DNA from: Xestospongia bergquistia
Taxonomy: Eukaryota; Porifera; Demospongiae; Haplosclerida; Petrosiidae
Reading direction: 5' to 3'
Assembly (NCBI GenBank): GCA_963965975.1
Contig: OZ014418.1
Coordinates: forward strand, 3,670,775-3,734,774
DNA: 64,000 nucleotides
The position numbers and the translations under genes are program-made. Positions within the stretch are counted from its first letter, which is position 1. Every line of letters starts with the position of its first letter. Under the pieces are notes generated by a model, which ran no database searches, was not told the DNA's origin, and was given only the letters and a program-made list of their open reading frames with translations. Of the stretch, positions 15,868 to 24,342 are shown one piece after another.

Positions 15868-16430
15868 TCACTTTGGCACAACATGATAAGGCATATTAAC
15901 ATTGGTGGCTAGATCTGGTTGCTGGTACACTTGGCTAGTGTTTGAGAGTGCTGAAATGGTATCAGGAGTTGCCTCTACTGGTCTAGAGTAAGTTGGTACA
16001 GATGTAGGTGGAGCATGTGAGTTGTTTTCAGTGGATGAGGCGGAGCTCTGAAGGAGAGTATGATGTGCAGCTGAAGACTGATGTACAAGGTCCTTTTGAT
16101 GTGGGAGCTGATTGGGCATTGGTGTTAGTGTGGCTGAAGACTGTTGAGGCATAGGGTGTTCTGCTGCTATTTGTATTGCAAGTGACTTATGATTAACTAG
16201 TTCTTTACATAATGCATAGCAAAGAGTTCTCCATGTGGGACGGCTTGGTGAGGATTGCATCCATTTTTCAATCATTGCTTTACGACATTCAACTACATCA
16301 CCTCGATGTGTTTTTTCAATTTCTGTCATTACTGGAGGCTTAAGTTTTAGAGCTAATCCTAATTCAGACCAATTAGTAACACCAGCAACAGCTACTATAA
16401 CATCATAAAAGTCACTGCTTGAGTTATAGT
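15868..16430 (-). other. Death-domain exon with Ser/Thr/Pro-rich tail
   Basis: After the acceptor ctcacag the exon encodes VTNWSELGLALKLKPPVMTE, then RKAMIEKWMQ and PTWRTLCYAL. These match helices 2-6 of a death domain, including the W..LG.AL and W...L pattern. About 110 low-complexity residues rich in S, T, P and Q follow to the stop at 15868. Death domains build oligomeric platforms in innate immunity and cell death. Confidence 0.85.
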
Positions 16431-17146
16431 CTGTGAGAAAGGTAAAATCAAACATCAATTTAAATCTAAGTGCCTTATATGCAAGTACATGTATTTTAGG
16501 GCACTCTCTCATTAAATGATAAAGTGTGTAAACTGTACAGTGTAGTTGAGGTTACAGTTATGGTAGATTATATACATGAATTTATATGAAGGGGTATGAA
16601 TTAGAAAACAATTACTTGTGAATGCTATCATGGATACTAAAGCAATGAAGAGGTTAGAAATGCTTCCATAATCATCTATATAAATTCATTGACAAAATAT
16701 ACTATAGTACATCTGTTTATTGTTGAGTAATTGGTACTGGTACTAATCTAGAGACAACTTTGGTCTTTCCAAACTGCCTCTTTGGATAATTAAAATTACA
16801 TAGATGATGTTTCTCTGTCCATATTTTTTAACAGCTGCTGACAATGGCAGACATGTATGCATGACTGTCTTTTATTGTGTGTGTAGGATGTGATAATTTC
16901 ATGAATGAGATAAACACATGTAATTATTATTCATATCAATTATTAATAATGAATATTCAATTTTTCGAAGAAAAATTGGTCTGGGCAAAGCTTAACTGGC
17001 AAACTGACCCCTACGCCCATGTGTGTATATTATACCAGGAGGTCATAATTACAGAGAAAGAGGAACAGAGATGAGTATGAAGTGTCCAATACAATAATTG
17101 AATGTCTAATTTATCCCATGTTGTCTAGTCTCTTCCTTGCTCTAAC

Positions 17147-17340
17147 TACAAAGCAACATATCAGGCAAACTGATAGAAATCTGTCAATGCCTCAAAGAAC
17201 ACCTGAAAGCTGTTGACTTAAGAGACACAAACACTAGTACTGTAGCAGAACATGTCTACAAGACAGGTCACACCATAGATTGGGAGAATATAGTAATCTT
17301 TGAACATCATCCCAATCTCTGGAAATGATGCTTAGAAACA
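17147..17340 (+). mobile_element. Penelope-like GIY-YIG endonuclease remnant
   Basis: The frame reads RDTNTSTVAEHVYKTGHTID, then WENIVIFEHHPNLWK. Upstream, in another frame, is RQTDRNLS, a decayed form of the Y.GQTGR.L motif. The S.VAEH...GH..DW pattern is typical of the GIY-YIG domain at the end of Penelope-like retroelements and related RT proteins. No RT is next to it. It sits inside an intron of the ankyrin-death gene, on the opposite strand. Confidence 0.65.
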
Positions 17341-17617
17341 TCTAGCCACTAATGAAGATAGCGGCACTAGCTGTCCAAACATCTGGCAAAAATGTTTATC
17401 TACATTTTCTTGGTACAAAATAAATTATGTCTCAAGTATTCAATTATTTGTGTTAGTGCTTCACACTCTTCTCCACTATTTCTGTAGTATGGACCCCAGT
17501 TATACTTGTAAGTTTATAACAATACTTTCCTAGTATAGTCACATTGTGAAAATACTATATTGATTAATTAATACTCACAATCTAGTGTTGTGTCATCAAC
17601 AGCTTCTATCCAATTAC

Positions 17618-19397
17618 CTATACAATAAGAAACCAATCAGTTATGATAGTTATAATAATTGCAACATTAATAATAGACATAATTATTAATGCACATATAC
17701 ATGTTGTGTATAGGACAAGCTACTAGTACATAAAATTAATGCTAAAATAATAGAATGTGAAGGAACTGACTAAATTTAATAATTATCAAGTAAAATTGAA
17801 ATGTGTACAAATGATGACAAAACATCACAGACACAACCATAATGATAGTAATCCCTATAGCAAACAGATATATTAAGTATTAACAAAATAGATCAAAACC
17901 TTAGAGTGACACTCAATGAGTACTGGAGTATTGGTTATTATGTAGAATACAAAATGTTCCTAGTCTAGCTGATTTAGTTTGTGATGTTTTGTTATTTAAC
18001 TTCTGTTACTTGTTTGTGAAATGATTAAGATAATTCTAATAAATAAAATAATGGATCTATTAAGAAATTGTGTTCACATAGTGAGTAGGTGTGGTTAGTT
18101 TCATCTCAAAACTGCTACTCTTAACAGCAAAAGGTAGTCTGGTATCTTTGTCAATTTCAACAGGCAATGATGCATATTTATATCAATGTGTTTAATGAAA
18201 TATCTCCATTCATATTAGGGAAATAAATATTATTATTATCACATGACATATAAAAGTTAGATCTGGCAGGAAACAGGACATAGACAGGTAAACATCATAA
18301 TTGCAACATTTAAGTTTACCTGTCTCAATAAAATCAGTCAAAGACACCATACTATACCTTTTGCTTGGGTATGGTAGTTTGGGGATAAGACTAAAGCATA
18401 GTTACTTTTCCATATTGAACAATAAGCAACCCAAAGTCAACCTTAATTATATACAGTCATAAAATTATGCATAGACATAATAATCATATTTAAGTAATAG
18501 TTACAAGGAGAAAACTAAGGTGATTTATAAGCATTGAGTTTTACTTCTAAGGAAGTAACTACCTACATATTATTATATAACAATATCAGTAGTACAGGTA
18601 ATTGAGAGCAATTAAACTACCATAAAGTCTGATCAATCTACATTTCAACTTCATGACTTAGAGTCATAAACAGCTATCAAATCTTAATAATTGTATCAAA
18701 CAATACTATTTAGACAAATAGACACTACCAAAACACTTTAAAAAGACAGTTGAGTTCAGTCAATACATAGATATTTAACATGGAAGGTTACATATCATGG
18801 ACAGAGATTCTAAACATTTAATTGACTTAGCCCTTATTATTATTCCGTGACTCCACATTAAGGTAATTAACCTGGAGCTTATGAATAACAATACACCACA
18901 TTGTTATTAAAGTAACAACATCCATCATAAAATTCAATTAGAATAAAAATTTTTACCACTTTGGTTCATGACCCAGTAATATAAACCTTATTCATTTTAT
19001 AAGAACCCCTTCTCAAATTTCTAAGTCTGCTCCCTATACAAGTATTCAGTAACAATATTATTTGGTATCATACATAGCTCTCAGAATCTGCTAATCTGAG
19101 ATTAATTGTTTCTTTGTTAAACACACATCTACTGAGATTTATTGGCAAGATCACAATAAAAAATGTTAAGATTGAAAAAGTGAACAAAAGCTATAATTTA
19201 GATGAAGAAACACTTTTAAAATGAACATTTTCACAATATACAAAATTATTATGTAACAATGTGTATTCATGTCCATAGAGGTACATGCATACCAAAGCAA
19301 CTAATCATATTCATTGGTTACTACAGTATGTGTCAAAGGTCAATATAAGTAGTCTAATATTTATTCATATCCCACCATTAGAACAAATGATAAACAG

Positions 19398-19398
<1 letters not shown>
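17618..19398. other. Long AT-rich intron (1.9 kb) of the ankyrin-death gene
   Basis: No conserved reading frame is seen. The intron also contains the (TA)n tract that follows, and is unusually long for this gene, whose upstream introns are mostly 50-315 bp. Confidence 0.6.
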
Positions 19399-19437
<39 letters not shown>

Positions 19438-19449
19438 TATATATATATA
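19399..19449. repeat. (TA)n microsatellite
   Basis: About 50 bp of alternating TA with one slip, inside the long intron. Confidence 0.95.
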
Positions 19450-22038
19450 CATATAACATAACCTATGATTTATGGGACCATCTGACTTGTTAGGTAGACA
19501 ATAGTAATTAAAGGATTAATGCTAAAAACTCACTGTCAGAAGAGTGAACTTCTCTTTTGAAATTATCAACTGCTTCTAAGAATAGACATAAACATTATCA
19601 ATTATACACTAATCTATCTATCTATCTGTCTGTTGTCGTTTAAAGATTACTCAAAATTCTCTTTGTCCAGCTACATTTATTACCAATCTTATTTATTAAT
19701 TTAACTACCATCCATAATTCACTAGTAATTCACACATTTATCATCAATAGTTATATCATATGAACTCACCAGTAAACCAAGGACATTTACGATGACAAGA
19801 AATCAAATTGTCATGTCCTTGACATGTCAAATAGATGTCATCATCATGGTGAACATAATCAATGTCTTTACATCTTTCACAGTAAAACCTTGTTTAAGTT
19901 CTTTAAGACAGCTGAGTTGGTAATGATATCACTCAATAGCAGTTTTAATCCCCTCAGAAATAGCTTTTAAAATTGTCAGGACAGTGCTTAAGTAATCCTG
20001 TATAGTAGACTTCAATGTAGTACGTACAATCTACCAGTAGCAACCATCCACTGGAAGAGCATTCAAAACAGATTGTGTTCCGTTGTTGCTGGAATACATT
20101 GTCCGGTTTCTTTAAAGAAAATATTGGTTTCACTTGACGTGTTGTTAAAAAATTTATTAAAGCTGGAAATAAGCCATAAGGAATGGGCTCTTTATCCCAG
20201 GACAAAATAACAGGGTCAAAATTCTTGGTAAAGTGTTGACGTTGGTTGTCAGACAACTGTTTCCAAGGTAGGACACATGGCATGAAGTATTGAACAACAC
20301 TATGTGCTGATGACTTAGAAGGAAGAATTTCAGCAATGATAAGAAGATACTTTAAAAGTTTGATAAAATCGTGTGGTGAGAATATCTCAGTTTGTTCATC
20401 AAGAAGCATCTTGACAAGATCATCTGTAAATAAACCTTCTTTTTTAAATTTGTCAAAAGCATTTGGTAAGAGATACATGTGCAAAGTTGGTAAATCTCCT
20501 AGTGTAGTTAAAAATGAAAGTGATATTAACTTGGACACTTTGTTCAGCAGTGGTTCAGGATGAGTGAACACTATGTTTGGCAGAACTGATGGGAAGTAGA
20601 ATAGCATACCTAGGCCATCAAAATGTATTAAAGCACCCTCAACATCTTCAGGTGTCATGTGAAGATCATTACCAACTTCAAGACATTTATTGCGATTAAT
20701 AATATTATATGACGTAGCTTGACCAAGCTTGGATATGTTGAGCTGAAACAAAAACCATTTGACAGGTAAATCAAATTTTACCATTGTACCAGGAGAAGAT
20801 GTGATCAGCTGATTTAATTCGATTGATTTACTTTGACGGCCAGGACCTTCAGAAATGAGAGTATTAACAGGATGAATAAGCTCTCCCTGTGGTGTAGTAA
20901 TACATATATCTTTGAATTTGGCTAATGATGAATTCAGTGTCCTGTTTTTTTCATCAAGAGATTCAGGACATTCATGAGCTCTGTCTTGGAATGTACCAAA
21001 CACAAGAAGGTGTGGTCGATATGAACAATAGCTTGTACATGTAGTAGGAACTACTGAAGACAGAGAGCGGGCAAAACCAGTGATCATATCAATGTTTGTA
21101 AGTTCTCTTGTCTCTTGAATCTTGAAATGTCTGCCAGCAAGTACAAACCCTGTGTTAGGACAGCTACGTAACTCATCAATAAGTCTAAATAAATAAAATG
21201 ATTTGTAAATAGTGTTACAATAATGGGTTAAAATTCTACTTTCTAATCGACACAGACAATGCACAATTAACAAACTGTTTTGTTATTAAGGAGCCAAAAA
21301 TTACACAATATATTACATCATACCTTAATGTCATAATGTTTAATGAATTACAACGCAAGAATGCAGGAGCAATATCTTGAAAAGCAGCCTGACCTCCTGA
21401 GTCAATACAATAAATCCAACGGACACGATAGAACTCATCCGAACTAGACTCAGAAGAAAGATGAGATACAATCTCGTATCGTATTGACTGAGATGGTGGG
21501 ACTGCTGTTAGCTCAGATGATGAACTTGCTTCAGACTTTGGTGTAGCTCCAGATTGTTGTGATCGCATACGAGGCAAAAATCTACGCCATTTCCTAGTTG
21601 ATTCTGATGAGTTAGTTTGAGTTAATAGCTCAACAGAGGAGTTGCTTACAGATTCATTTAGTCCACGAGACAATCTAGCAATAAACTCATCCTCTTCCAC
21701 TCGAGTAATACCACATTTATCACCTTTAAAGACATTGTCACTTGAGGCTCTGACTGCTGGAGTGACTACGCCAGTACTCTCTCTAGTTTCGGGAGGAGGT
21801 TCATTTAGTAATAGGTGCTGTAGACATGTCTTGCCACTCCCAGGAGCTCCATGAATAGATATATGAGTGATTTCAAGCTGTACCACTTTGCCTTCAGATA
21901 ATGCTTTTTGTAACCGTTTCTTAGCATCATCTACAATGATATATGAGTAACATCTATTGTGGTTACAATGTCCATGTGTTTATATCCATGTACACATTAT
22001 GTATAACATAGTCGTTGAGTAAACACATTGTGTCCTAC

Positions 22039-22990
22039 CTAGACCAGCAAGATATTCTTCAATTTGGGCTTGTCCCTCTTTCCTTGCAATTTGAATGGGA
22101 GTCAAACCCTCCTACATTAACATAATAGAATATTAAACTTATTATTACAAGTACAGTAACTAACTGTGTTTGAGACATTCCAACTTGCTCCTCTGCTAAC
22201 AAGTAACTTAACAATATTCACTTGTCCAGTAGTGCATGCTATCATAAGTGGGGTTGACCTTGTAATCTAATAGTCAAAGATATCATTTATTATAGGTAAT
22301 GTAAACAGGTTTGTCACCTTTGTTTGGATATTGATATCAGCTCCATGATCAATAAGAGCAACAGCAGTTGAGTATCCACCATGCATAGCAAGCCAATGAA
22401 TAGTACTGCGATTTAACTACAACAATGATATTGACATGTACAATATCAGTTATGAGACAATGGGTCATTTGTAGATTATCATTATGCTAACCTCATCAAT
22501 TTCATTGGGATCAGCTCCATGATTTTAAAGTATTTTGACAACTTCAGCATTGTCACAGTAAGCTGCAATACCCAAAGGAGTTTTGCCTCCCTATAACAAC
22601 AAATCTCTTTTGACAAACACAGTGAATCTTTAGTTATACTCTTGACATAATAGATTTTAGTTTGAATATTATAACAAAAAGTAAAGGCTATAATATCCTC
22701 ATATATTTAGTATCAATTCAGTTTCCTTCTGCTCTATATCAAGTGTCACTCAGAGTCTCAAACATATAATTAAAGAAAGTGCTATGATATTGTCAAGAGT
22801 ATCAAGATGATCTAAGTTAGTGGTGGGACACAACAGAAAATTGGATTTTAATACAATAAGAAACAGCTAACAAAGATGTAAATTACATACAAGTATGAAT
22901 TACCTGTCCTTTGAAGTAAATATCAGCTCCCTGATGAATTAGCTGTTCTACTTTCTCATGATCACCATCCAGACAAAGCACCCCAAAGTG
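22039..22990 (-). other. Ankyrin repeat array of the gene above
   Basis: Five exons of 87, 99, 99, 102 and 73 nt each hold roughly one 33-residue repeat, for example TIHWLAMHGGYSTAVALIDH and STPLMIACTTGQVNIVKLL followed by GA. Junctions are phase 0 except the last, a modular exon-per-repeat design. The second unit contains the in-frame TAA at the position where a polar residue follows VVKIL. Confidence 0.8.
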
Positions 22991-23087
22991 CTTCATTCTT
23001 TAATCAAGATAAAATTCAATGAATTACGACCACATTACTCATTTTACATAACCAAATAATAATTCTACTATTAAAAAGTTTTGCTTT

Positions 23088-23110
23088 GGGGGAGTGGGGG
23101 GGGGGGGGGG
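23088..23110. repeat. Homopolymer G tract
   Basis: A G-rich run ending in 15 consecutive G lies inside intron 1 of the ankyrin-death gene. It could form G-quadruplex structures and is a likely spot for sequencing error. Confidence 0.9.
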
Positions 23111-23181
23111 ATAATGAGCCAAATACAAAGCAGTTTCTACTTGGTTACTTCTAAACCACTCACCAAAGCATTTGAGGCCAT

Positions 23182-23285
23182 ACTCTCCTCTTTCGTCTGT
23201 GTAAAGTCATTTCAACGACAAAGGGGTGTAACTTATTAATAGTTTTTATACCGCCTGCATTGTCAGCTAATTTCAGTTACAAATC
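23182..23285. promoter_or_regulatory. Putative bidirectional promoter
   Basis: Only 104 bp separate the start codon of the minus-strand ankyrin-death gene (23181) from that of the plus-strand protease-like gene (23286). Head-to-head spacing this short implies shared regulation. No certain TATA box is visible; a tttttata at 23246 is a weak candidate. Confidence 0.45.
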
Positions 23286-24342
23286 ATGGGACAAGGACAG
23301 GCAAAACTGACTCAAACAAGGCAGGATCAACAAAAGAAAATAGACTTGCTTCAACCACAAGAGAACTGCCCTCTACCTCGTGAAATCATATTGCAATTAT
23401 CGAAATCATTTTGTGGTATTGTTGATGATAATGACTGAATGATCAGAGGAGTTCTCATCTCATTAACAACCAATAATAGCACGACCCTTTATGGGTTTGT
23501 AAGCCACTGCAATGAGCTCCCAACTAATATTACAAACGTCAAGCTAGAGTTCAGTGATCCTGATAGTAAGAATCAACACTCATTTCCCTTAGATTTGAAC
23601 TCTGTACTTTATTTTACTTGCCCAATCATTGAAGTTGTCTTCATTCATCTTGATCAGCAACTACTATATTGCACTAAAACAACATAATAGATTTTTCTTT
23701 GACCTTAACCAAGACATACACAGTGCATCAAATGAGGACACAGTTTATCTATTTTCTTTACCTGAAATCAACCATGAAATTGAATATGCATCTGGTTGTT
23801 TTAAGGAATATTATGGCCAAGACTTAGTATACTCCATGAATTGTTCCTTTGTTTCTCCTGGACTTCCAGTGGTATCATCGAGTGGTCAGCTATTAGGAAT
23901 TCATAAAAACGTTCAAATTGACACTTTTATAGCTATATCGATAACCACTGTCTTCACAGCAGTTAGCAAACTTGTAAACACACTTGATGCCCCAGCTACA
24001 AGGATTATTAGTAATCCTATTGATTTAGTTCCTTATGGATCAAACCTACGTGAAAATGGATTGGAGCCATTGTCTATTTCAGGTAACAAATATGAACGAT
24101 GTACGTTTTGTATCAGTCCTGCATCCCCATACATCACTCCCATCTGGTTTGCACCAACATATCTTGGTTGGTATTGGAGCCCCACCGATCCCACTGGTGA
24201 AACTCAAAGCAATTGGATGTCAGTTTCAAGACTAGAAGTAATCGGTGGAGAGTGGCATGGCCAAATACCTGTACCTAGAAATGTAACAATCATTCACTGG
24301 TTAGATCAACATAACATAGTATGTGGTAACTGTTCTTTATAA
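23286..24342 (+). pseudogene. Trypsin-like peptidase-fold protein, nucleophile lost, two lesions
   Basis: The start MGQGQAKLTQTRQDQQ has a Gly-2 myristoylation-type signal. A TGA at 23436-23438 (codon 51) is followed in frame by LYGFVSHCNELPTNI and LYFTCPIIEVVFIHLDQQ. A +1 shift near 23640-23700 leads to the frame containing SFVSPGLPVVSSSGQLLGIH. The family shape (VSHC-histidine region replaced by HCNEL, D..FIHL, then GxSGxPV..GQL.GIH) suggests a trypsin-like/HtrA fold. At the nucleophile site the expected GSSGSP reads SPGLP, so it would be inactive even unbroken. A C-terminal domain has GWYWSPTDPTGE and PRNVTIIHWL, unassigned. It is paired with the ankyrin-death gene. Confidence 0.6.

Follow-up and report, generated by a model that had tools for sequence, protein, structure and literature searches.

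A probably dead Roco-type gene with ankyrin repeats and a death domain, and its expanded family, in the sponge Xestospongia bergquistia

The minus strand of the window (the whole 64,000-nucleotide stretch analysed here, C8:3670775-3734774) contains, at 23181-15868, a Roco-type gene of 11 exons and 10 GT-AG introns. It probably belongs to a Roco-type family that combines ankyrin repeats, a Roc-COR module and a death domain and that has living relatives, and it probably died recently; most likely no full-length protein is made from the window copy. The position and strand are those of the original prediction, which was made from the DNA letters of the window. A dead copy alone is ordinary; the size of the living family and its mixing of domains look like the unusual part. 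The genome searched comprises 146.46 Mb in 21 contigs.

Exon plan and domains of the window gene

From the 5′ end, the predicted order of parts is ankyrins, Roc-like GTPase, COR and death domain, and the ankyrin, GTPase and death exons appear to be linked by splice logic. Exon 1 (23164-23181) supplies the start codon and the peptide MASNAL and is followed by a GT donor; it is identical in both sister copies keeping it. The next five exons carry one ankyrin repeat each, as had been predicted: exon 2 (22904-22997) the first ankyrin-like repeat, exon 3 (22492-22590) a repeat of 99 bases flanked by phase-0 introns, and exons 4 (22318-22416), 5 (22165-22266) and 6 (22039-22111, the last ankyrin-like repeat) three further units, bounded by GT-AG introns, which together match Pfam Ank at 3.6e-13 (49.4 bits, cut-off 21.1).

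Exon 7 (21324-21930) encodes the Roc-like GTPase with the P-loop GAPGSGKT, a Ser-rich insert and the DSGGQ switch. Both motifs were part of the original prediction and align with the family, and the exon is homologous to intact paralogues at no more than about 40% identity. Exon 8 (19770-21184) contains the remainder of the GTPase (GTFQDR), the COR region and a Cys-rich tail. Exons 9 (19534-19575) and 10 (17579-17617) are short linkers: the former is bounded by GT-AG introns and has the same phase in all four copies of the gene, while the latter shows an AG acceptor and a donor in the window and in copy C8b, and is longer by 9 bases in C8b and C8c. Exon 11 (15868-16430) encodes the anticipated C-terminal death domain, followed by a Pro/Ser/Gln-rich tail and the stop codon, and is homologous in all four copies (87-100%).

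The exon plan goes beyond chance, since C8b reads 1,052 codons under it with one stop. Applied to C8b, with exon 11 of the model taken from L067, the window plan gives 3,159 bases, that is 1,052 codons plus the terminal stop, with 10 GT-AG introns. The agreement of splice phases noted in the original prediction is confirmed.

The 139-base intron at 21185-21323 lies within the GTPase region. It is present in all four copies and was found nowhere else by DNA search of the genome. Since GTPase and COR share a single unbroken frame in each of the 16 relatives of alignment A1, the intron of the window clade is regarded as extra, and its restriction to the four-copy clade makes it a candidate intron gain.

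Some features around the exons were also recorded. A poly-C run in intron 1 (about 23096-23110) varies in length among the copies. The intron preceding exon 11 holds a plus-strand open reading frame (17146-17325) with no Pfam family at 0.01, reminiscent of a piece of a GIY-YIG element, and at 17333/17334 the other three copies have about 168-203 additional bases. On the plus strand at 23271-24342 lies a neighbour gene, seen as divergent open reading frames, two pieces of which are separated by a stop near 23436. It has no Pfam family at 0.01 and was duplicated together with the window gene in C8b and C12.

Sister copies, lesions and timing of the loss

The gene is part of a segmental duplication with four copies: the window, C8b (C8:3.89 Mb, 0.2 Mb from the window gene), C12 (C12:3.485 Mb) and C8c (C8:4.046 Mb), with aligned identities to the window of 97.5, 97.0 and 94.8%, respectively. 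DNA comparison shows that introns are included in all three further copies, and the upstream neighbour in C8b and C12. The match of C8c begins only at 21519, and this copy therefore lacks the ankyrins and the P-loop; a DNA search of the genome located the ankyrin block at three places, in the window, C12 and C8b.

The window copy has five lesions. A one-base length change near 22977 breaks the frame of exon 2, which has 94 bases versus 93 in C8b and C12, the two sisters that keep this exon and in which it is open. Exon 3 contains an in-frame TAA (22527-22525) that neither of these sisters has. Near the end of exon 8, the copy alignment places a frameshift near 19974, a TGA at 19931-19929 and a second frameshift near 19890. 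The original prediction, which spoke of few lesions and named the TAA and the exon 8 end as the only breaks, had missed the frameshift in exon 2. Four of the five lesions are private to the window among comparable copies, and the TGA is common to the window and C8c. All four copies are broken, mostly at different sites: C8b has a single internal stop (codon 420, a TGA common to C8c), C12 has several lesions including a stop in exon 11, and C8c has several. One shared stop unites a different set of copies from the other, a conflict that could stem from recurrent change or gene conversion.

Private codon changes were compared with a neutral expectation of 0.78 nonsynonymous. The window has 20 nonsynonymous and 6 synonymous changes and one stop, which is near that expectation (P(X<=20) 0.53); the corresponding counts are 27 and 8 with three stops for C12, 12 and 4 for C8c, and 3 and 4 for C8b. 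C8b alone departs from neutrality: 3 of its 7 changes are nonsynonymous, which is below expectation (P 0.047 in four uncorrected tests). Pairwise dN/dS among the copies ranges from 0.55 to 1.00. The older stem of the clade was under constraint: the window retains 80 of the 102 aligned columns that are invariant in the family, as against a match to the majority residue in 143 of the 456 other columns. A tree built from 32 rows unites the window with C8b (100/100), their stem measuring 2.41 changes per column; where the clade belongs among its relatives is uncertain, since long branches come together there. The lineage appears to be deep, with all four copies found in it broken.

The identity of 94.8-97.5% among the four copies, together with window-private changes as expected under neutrality, leads us to read the loss as recent, as the original prediction had it, with C8b as the last copy to fall.

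Two other readings of the frame breaks were weighed. They might be sequencing errors, which the original prediction had also raised, or assembly errors, or this animal might carry a broken allele while others keep the locus intact. Three of the five lesions are indeed single-base length changes, and C8b has one stop only and a low count of nonsynonymous private changes. However, the other two lesions are substitutions, one of them the TGA found again in C8c, while C12 and C8c are broken as well and C8c is without its 5′ part. Error alone is unlikely to account for the breaks, since those of the four copies fall mostly at different sites and 93 of the 105 family rows have no in-frame stop (12 do), though it may apply to some of the single-base changes; we consider this reading, the allele included, improbable.

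Slightly less probable still is that a shortened decoy protein without the death domain continues to be made. A start at the ATG at 22996 combined with skipping of exon 3, which preserves the frame because the exon has 99 bases between phase-0 introns, would avoid both upstream lesions and leave 734 codons open through the ankyrins, GTPase and COR. The near-neutral proportion of private changes in the window copy speaks against such a product.

Probable assignment to the Roco family through paralogues

The domain search suggested in the original prediction recovered the ankyrins in the window exons, while Roc in exon 7 (13 bits, cut-off 27) and Death in exon 11 (18.9 bits, cut-off 22.6) stayed below threshold and no Pfam family was matched by exon 8. 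With neither Roc nor COR passing its Pfam cut-off in the window exons, it is the paralogues that support the GTPase/COR reading, a comparison that the original prediction had also put forward.

A search of the genome with exon 8 gave at least 105 rows (105 of 460 candidates scored), or at least 104 places after the two halves of C8c were joined. COR-A was matched in 6 of the 16 relatives of alignment A1; among ten relatives scanned singly it was found in four, of which only L020 passes the cut-off (37.1 versus 35.3). The profile of the A1 family aligns over 492 columns with a protein of the same genome, L056, with probability 99.3 and an E-value of 2.6e-20. L056 passes both Roc (36.8 bits, cut-off 27) and COR-A (59.5, cut-off 35.3), its Roc match spanning profile positions 46-107 and leaving out the P-loop. 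In view of COR-A in the paralogues and the alignment to L056, the family is read as Roco, and by homology through these paralogues the window gene would belong to it; the COR-like region of the original prediction is borne out in the same indirect manner.

A P-loop NTPase unrelated to Roc, with a likeness to COR that arose by chance, is a very improbable reading and already largely refuted: weak AAA and ABC family matches do outscore Roc in the window GTPase exon, and among PDB structures the family profile finds no Roc-COR with a meaningful E-value (0.44 for the best match, 2.1 for LRRK1 through the P-loop only), but COR-A over cut-off in paralogues and the alignment to a Roc-COR protein speak against it.

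In bacterial and archaeal genomes, 46 pattern matches contained no relative by tblastn, which with two short patterns is weak evidence of absence. Separately, three near-identical LRR-Roc-COR-kinase genes (L053, L054 and L055; Pfam for L053 only) are adjacent on C8 near 7.28-7.30 Mb.

Size of the family and mixing of domains

Genome-wide, COR-A is found at no fewer than 146 places, at least 105 of them over cut-off (150 of 171 candidates scored), five of which pass only with neighbours in frame. COR-A is matched at 38 of the 104 exon-8 places, and merging the 146 COR-A and 104 exon-8 places within 1.5 kb gives at least about 212 Roco-like places; these are exon places and not annotated genes, and include pseudogenes and broken copies. 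For NACHT, scoring 103 of 156 candidates gave a minimum of 95 places, of which 94 exceed the cut-off. Both the Roco and the NACHT counts are lower bounds, and it is therefore not claimed that Rocos outnumber NLRs. The original prediction described the layout as of a kind expanded in sponges; the large expansion is confirmed, as seen in this one genome. No report of a comparable Roco expansion was found in the open-licence papers searched.

Relatives carry ankyrin exons, caspase domains or death-like exons ahead of the GTPase. Ankyrin exons over the Pfam cut-off precede intact GTPase-COR exons in L063, L064 and L065, three of the four relatives examined with 6 kb of upstream sequence, and the possibility that ankyrins are limited to the window clade was thereby ruled out. 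A caspase-family match lies 642-1743 bases upstream on the same strand at 34 of the 104 places, as compared with 5 downstream and none on the opposite strand in the control. His-Gly is the active-site motif of caspases. By eye, it is missing in the 12 genes with a readable region, and the upstream caspase domains therefore look inactive. In L052 a caspase domain (90.8 bits, cut-off 21.4) precedes the GTPase-COR exon and four death-like open reading frames, three of them over cut-off, follow it. A suspected CAP-Gly domain ahead of the caspase domain in L052 was not confirmed (0 families, CAP_GLY E 0.092).

Death-domain neighbours occur at 18 or more of the 104 places, counted in selected rows. 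In L066, death-like open reading frames lie upstream, none reported by Pfam at 0.01, and one of them sits where the window death exon matches at 5.1e-4. The closest outside relatives of the window death exon, L061 and L062, are 42-45% identical to it; GTPase-COR is absent from the open reading frames examined in these two.

Proposed mode of action

Known Roco and death-domain biology suggests how a living member of the family might work. The ankyrin repeats, as the proposed sensing or binding part, would bind a partner; binding would alter the state of the Roc-COR module, a putative nucleotide-controlled dimer switch; and this change would cluster the C-terminal death domains, which would recruit a death-fold partner as output. 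On the same grounds, the family may serve immunity or cell death. More tentatively, in a reading whose chances seem nearly balanced, Roco proteins form in this animal a receptor or cell-death arm about as large as its NLR set or larger. Its front modules (ankyrins, inactive-looking caspases and death-like exons) would be exchangeable and joined to one Roc-COR switch and to death-domain outputs, and the window gene would represent a deep lineage of it with all four copies found broken.

Comparison with known systems

The original prediction called the layout Roco/NLR-like. The Roco part is supported, as a layout of ankyrins, GTPase, COR and death domain, while the NLR part does not go beyond analogy. 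Sponge NLR repertoires, as presented in PMC12909245, are similarly a large receptor-like family with death domains, and a figure legend there includes COR among the domains of sponge NLRs. They differ in having NACHT and LRR, neither of which was found in window exons 4-8 and 11 by a Pfam scan with E up to 1.

The bacterial and metazoan AP-GTPase systems (PMC8195603) likewise join an AP-GTPase with COR to repeats and variable partner domains; in the portion of that account at hand, however, the expansion in Amphimedon is one of TRADD-N proteins and not of GTPase-COR proteins. The ROCO genes of brown algae (PMC11378527) also form an expanded Roco family with one repeat per exon, and are candidate immune receptors with some pseudogenes among them. 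Their repeats are LRRs, and the accessible text of that study reports no other domain combination. It gives up to 47 ROCO genes in one species, said to exceed other organisms reported to date; the 105 or more COR-A places over cut-off in this one animal genome would surpass that number.

The window gene, with its ankyrins, putative Roc-COR and predicted C-terminal death domain, resembles the DAPK1 group; DAPK1 itself has ankyrins. As described in PMC6337361, this group of Roco proteins has a death domain and no LRR. The Roc part of the window gene is strongly diverged in comparison and carries a long Ser-rich insert. In DAPK1 a kinase precedes Roc-COR, whereas no kinase is among the Pfam matches in window exons 4-8 and 11, and the minus strand upstream of the ATG at 23181 holds only short open reading frames. 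The intact ankyrin-bearing relatives on C1, C2 and C9 are testable proteins with which to ask if a kinase is dispensable for Roc-COR to work as a receptor switch.
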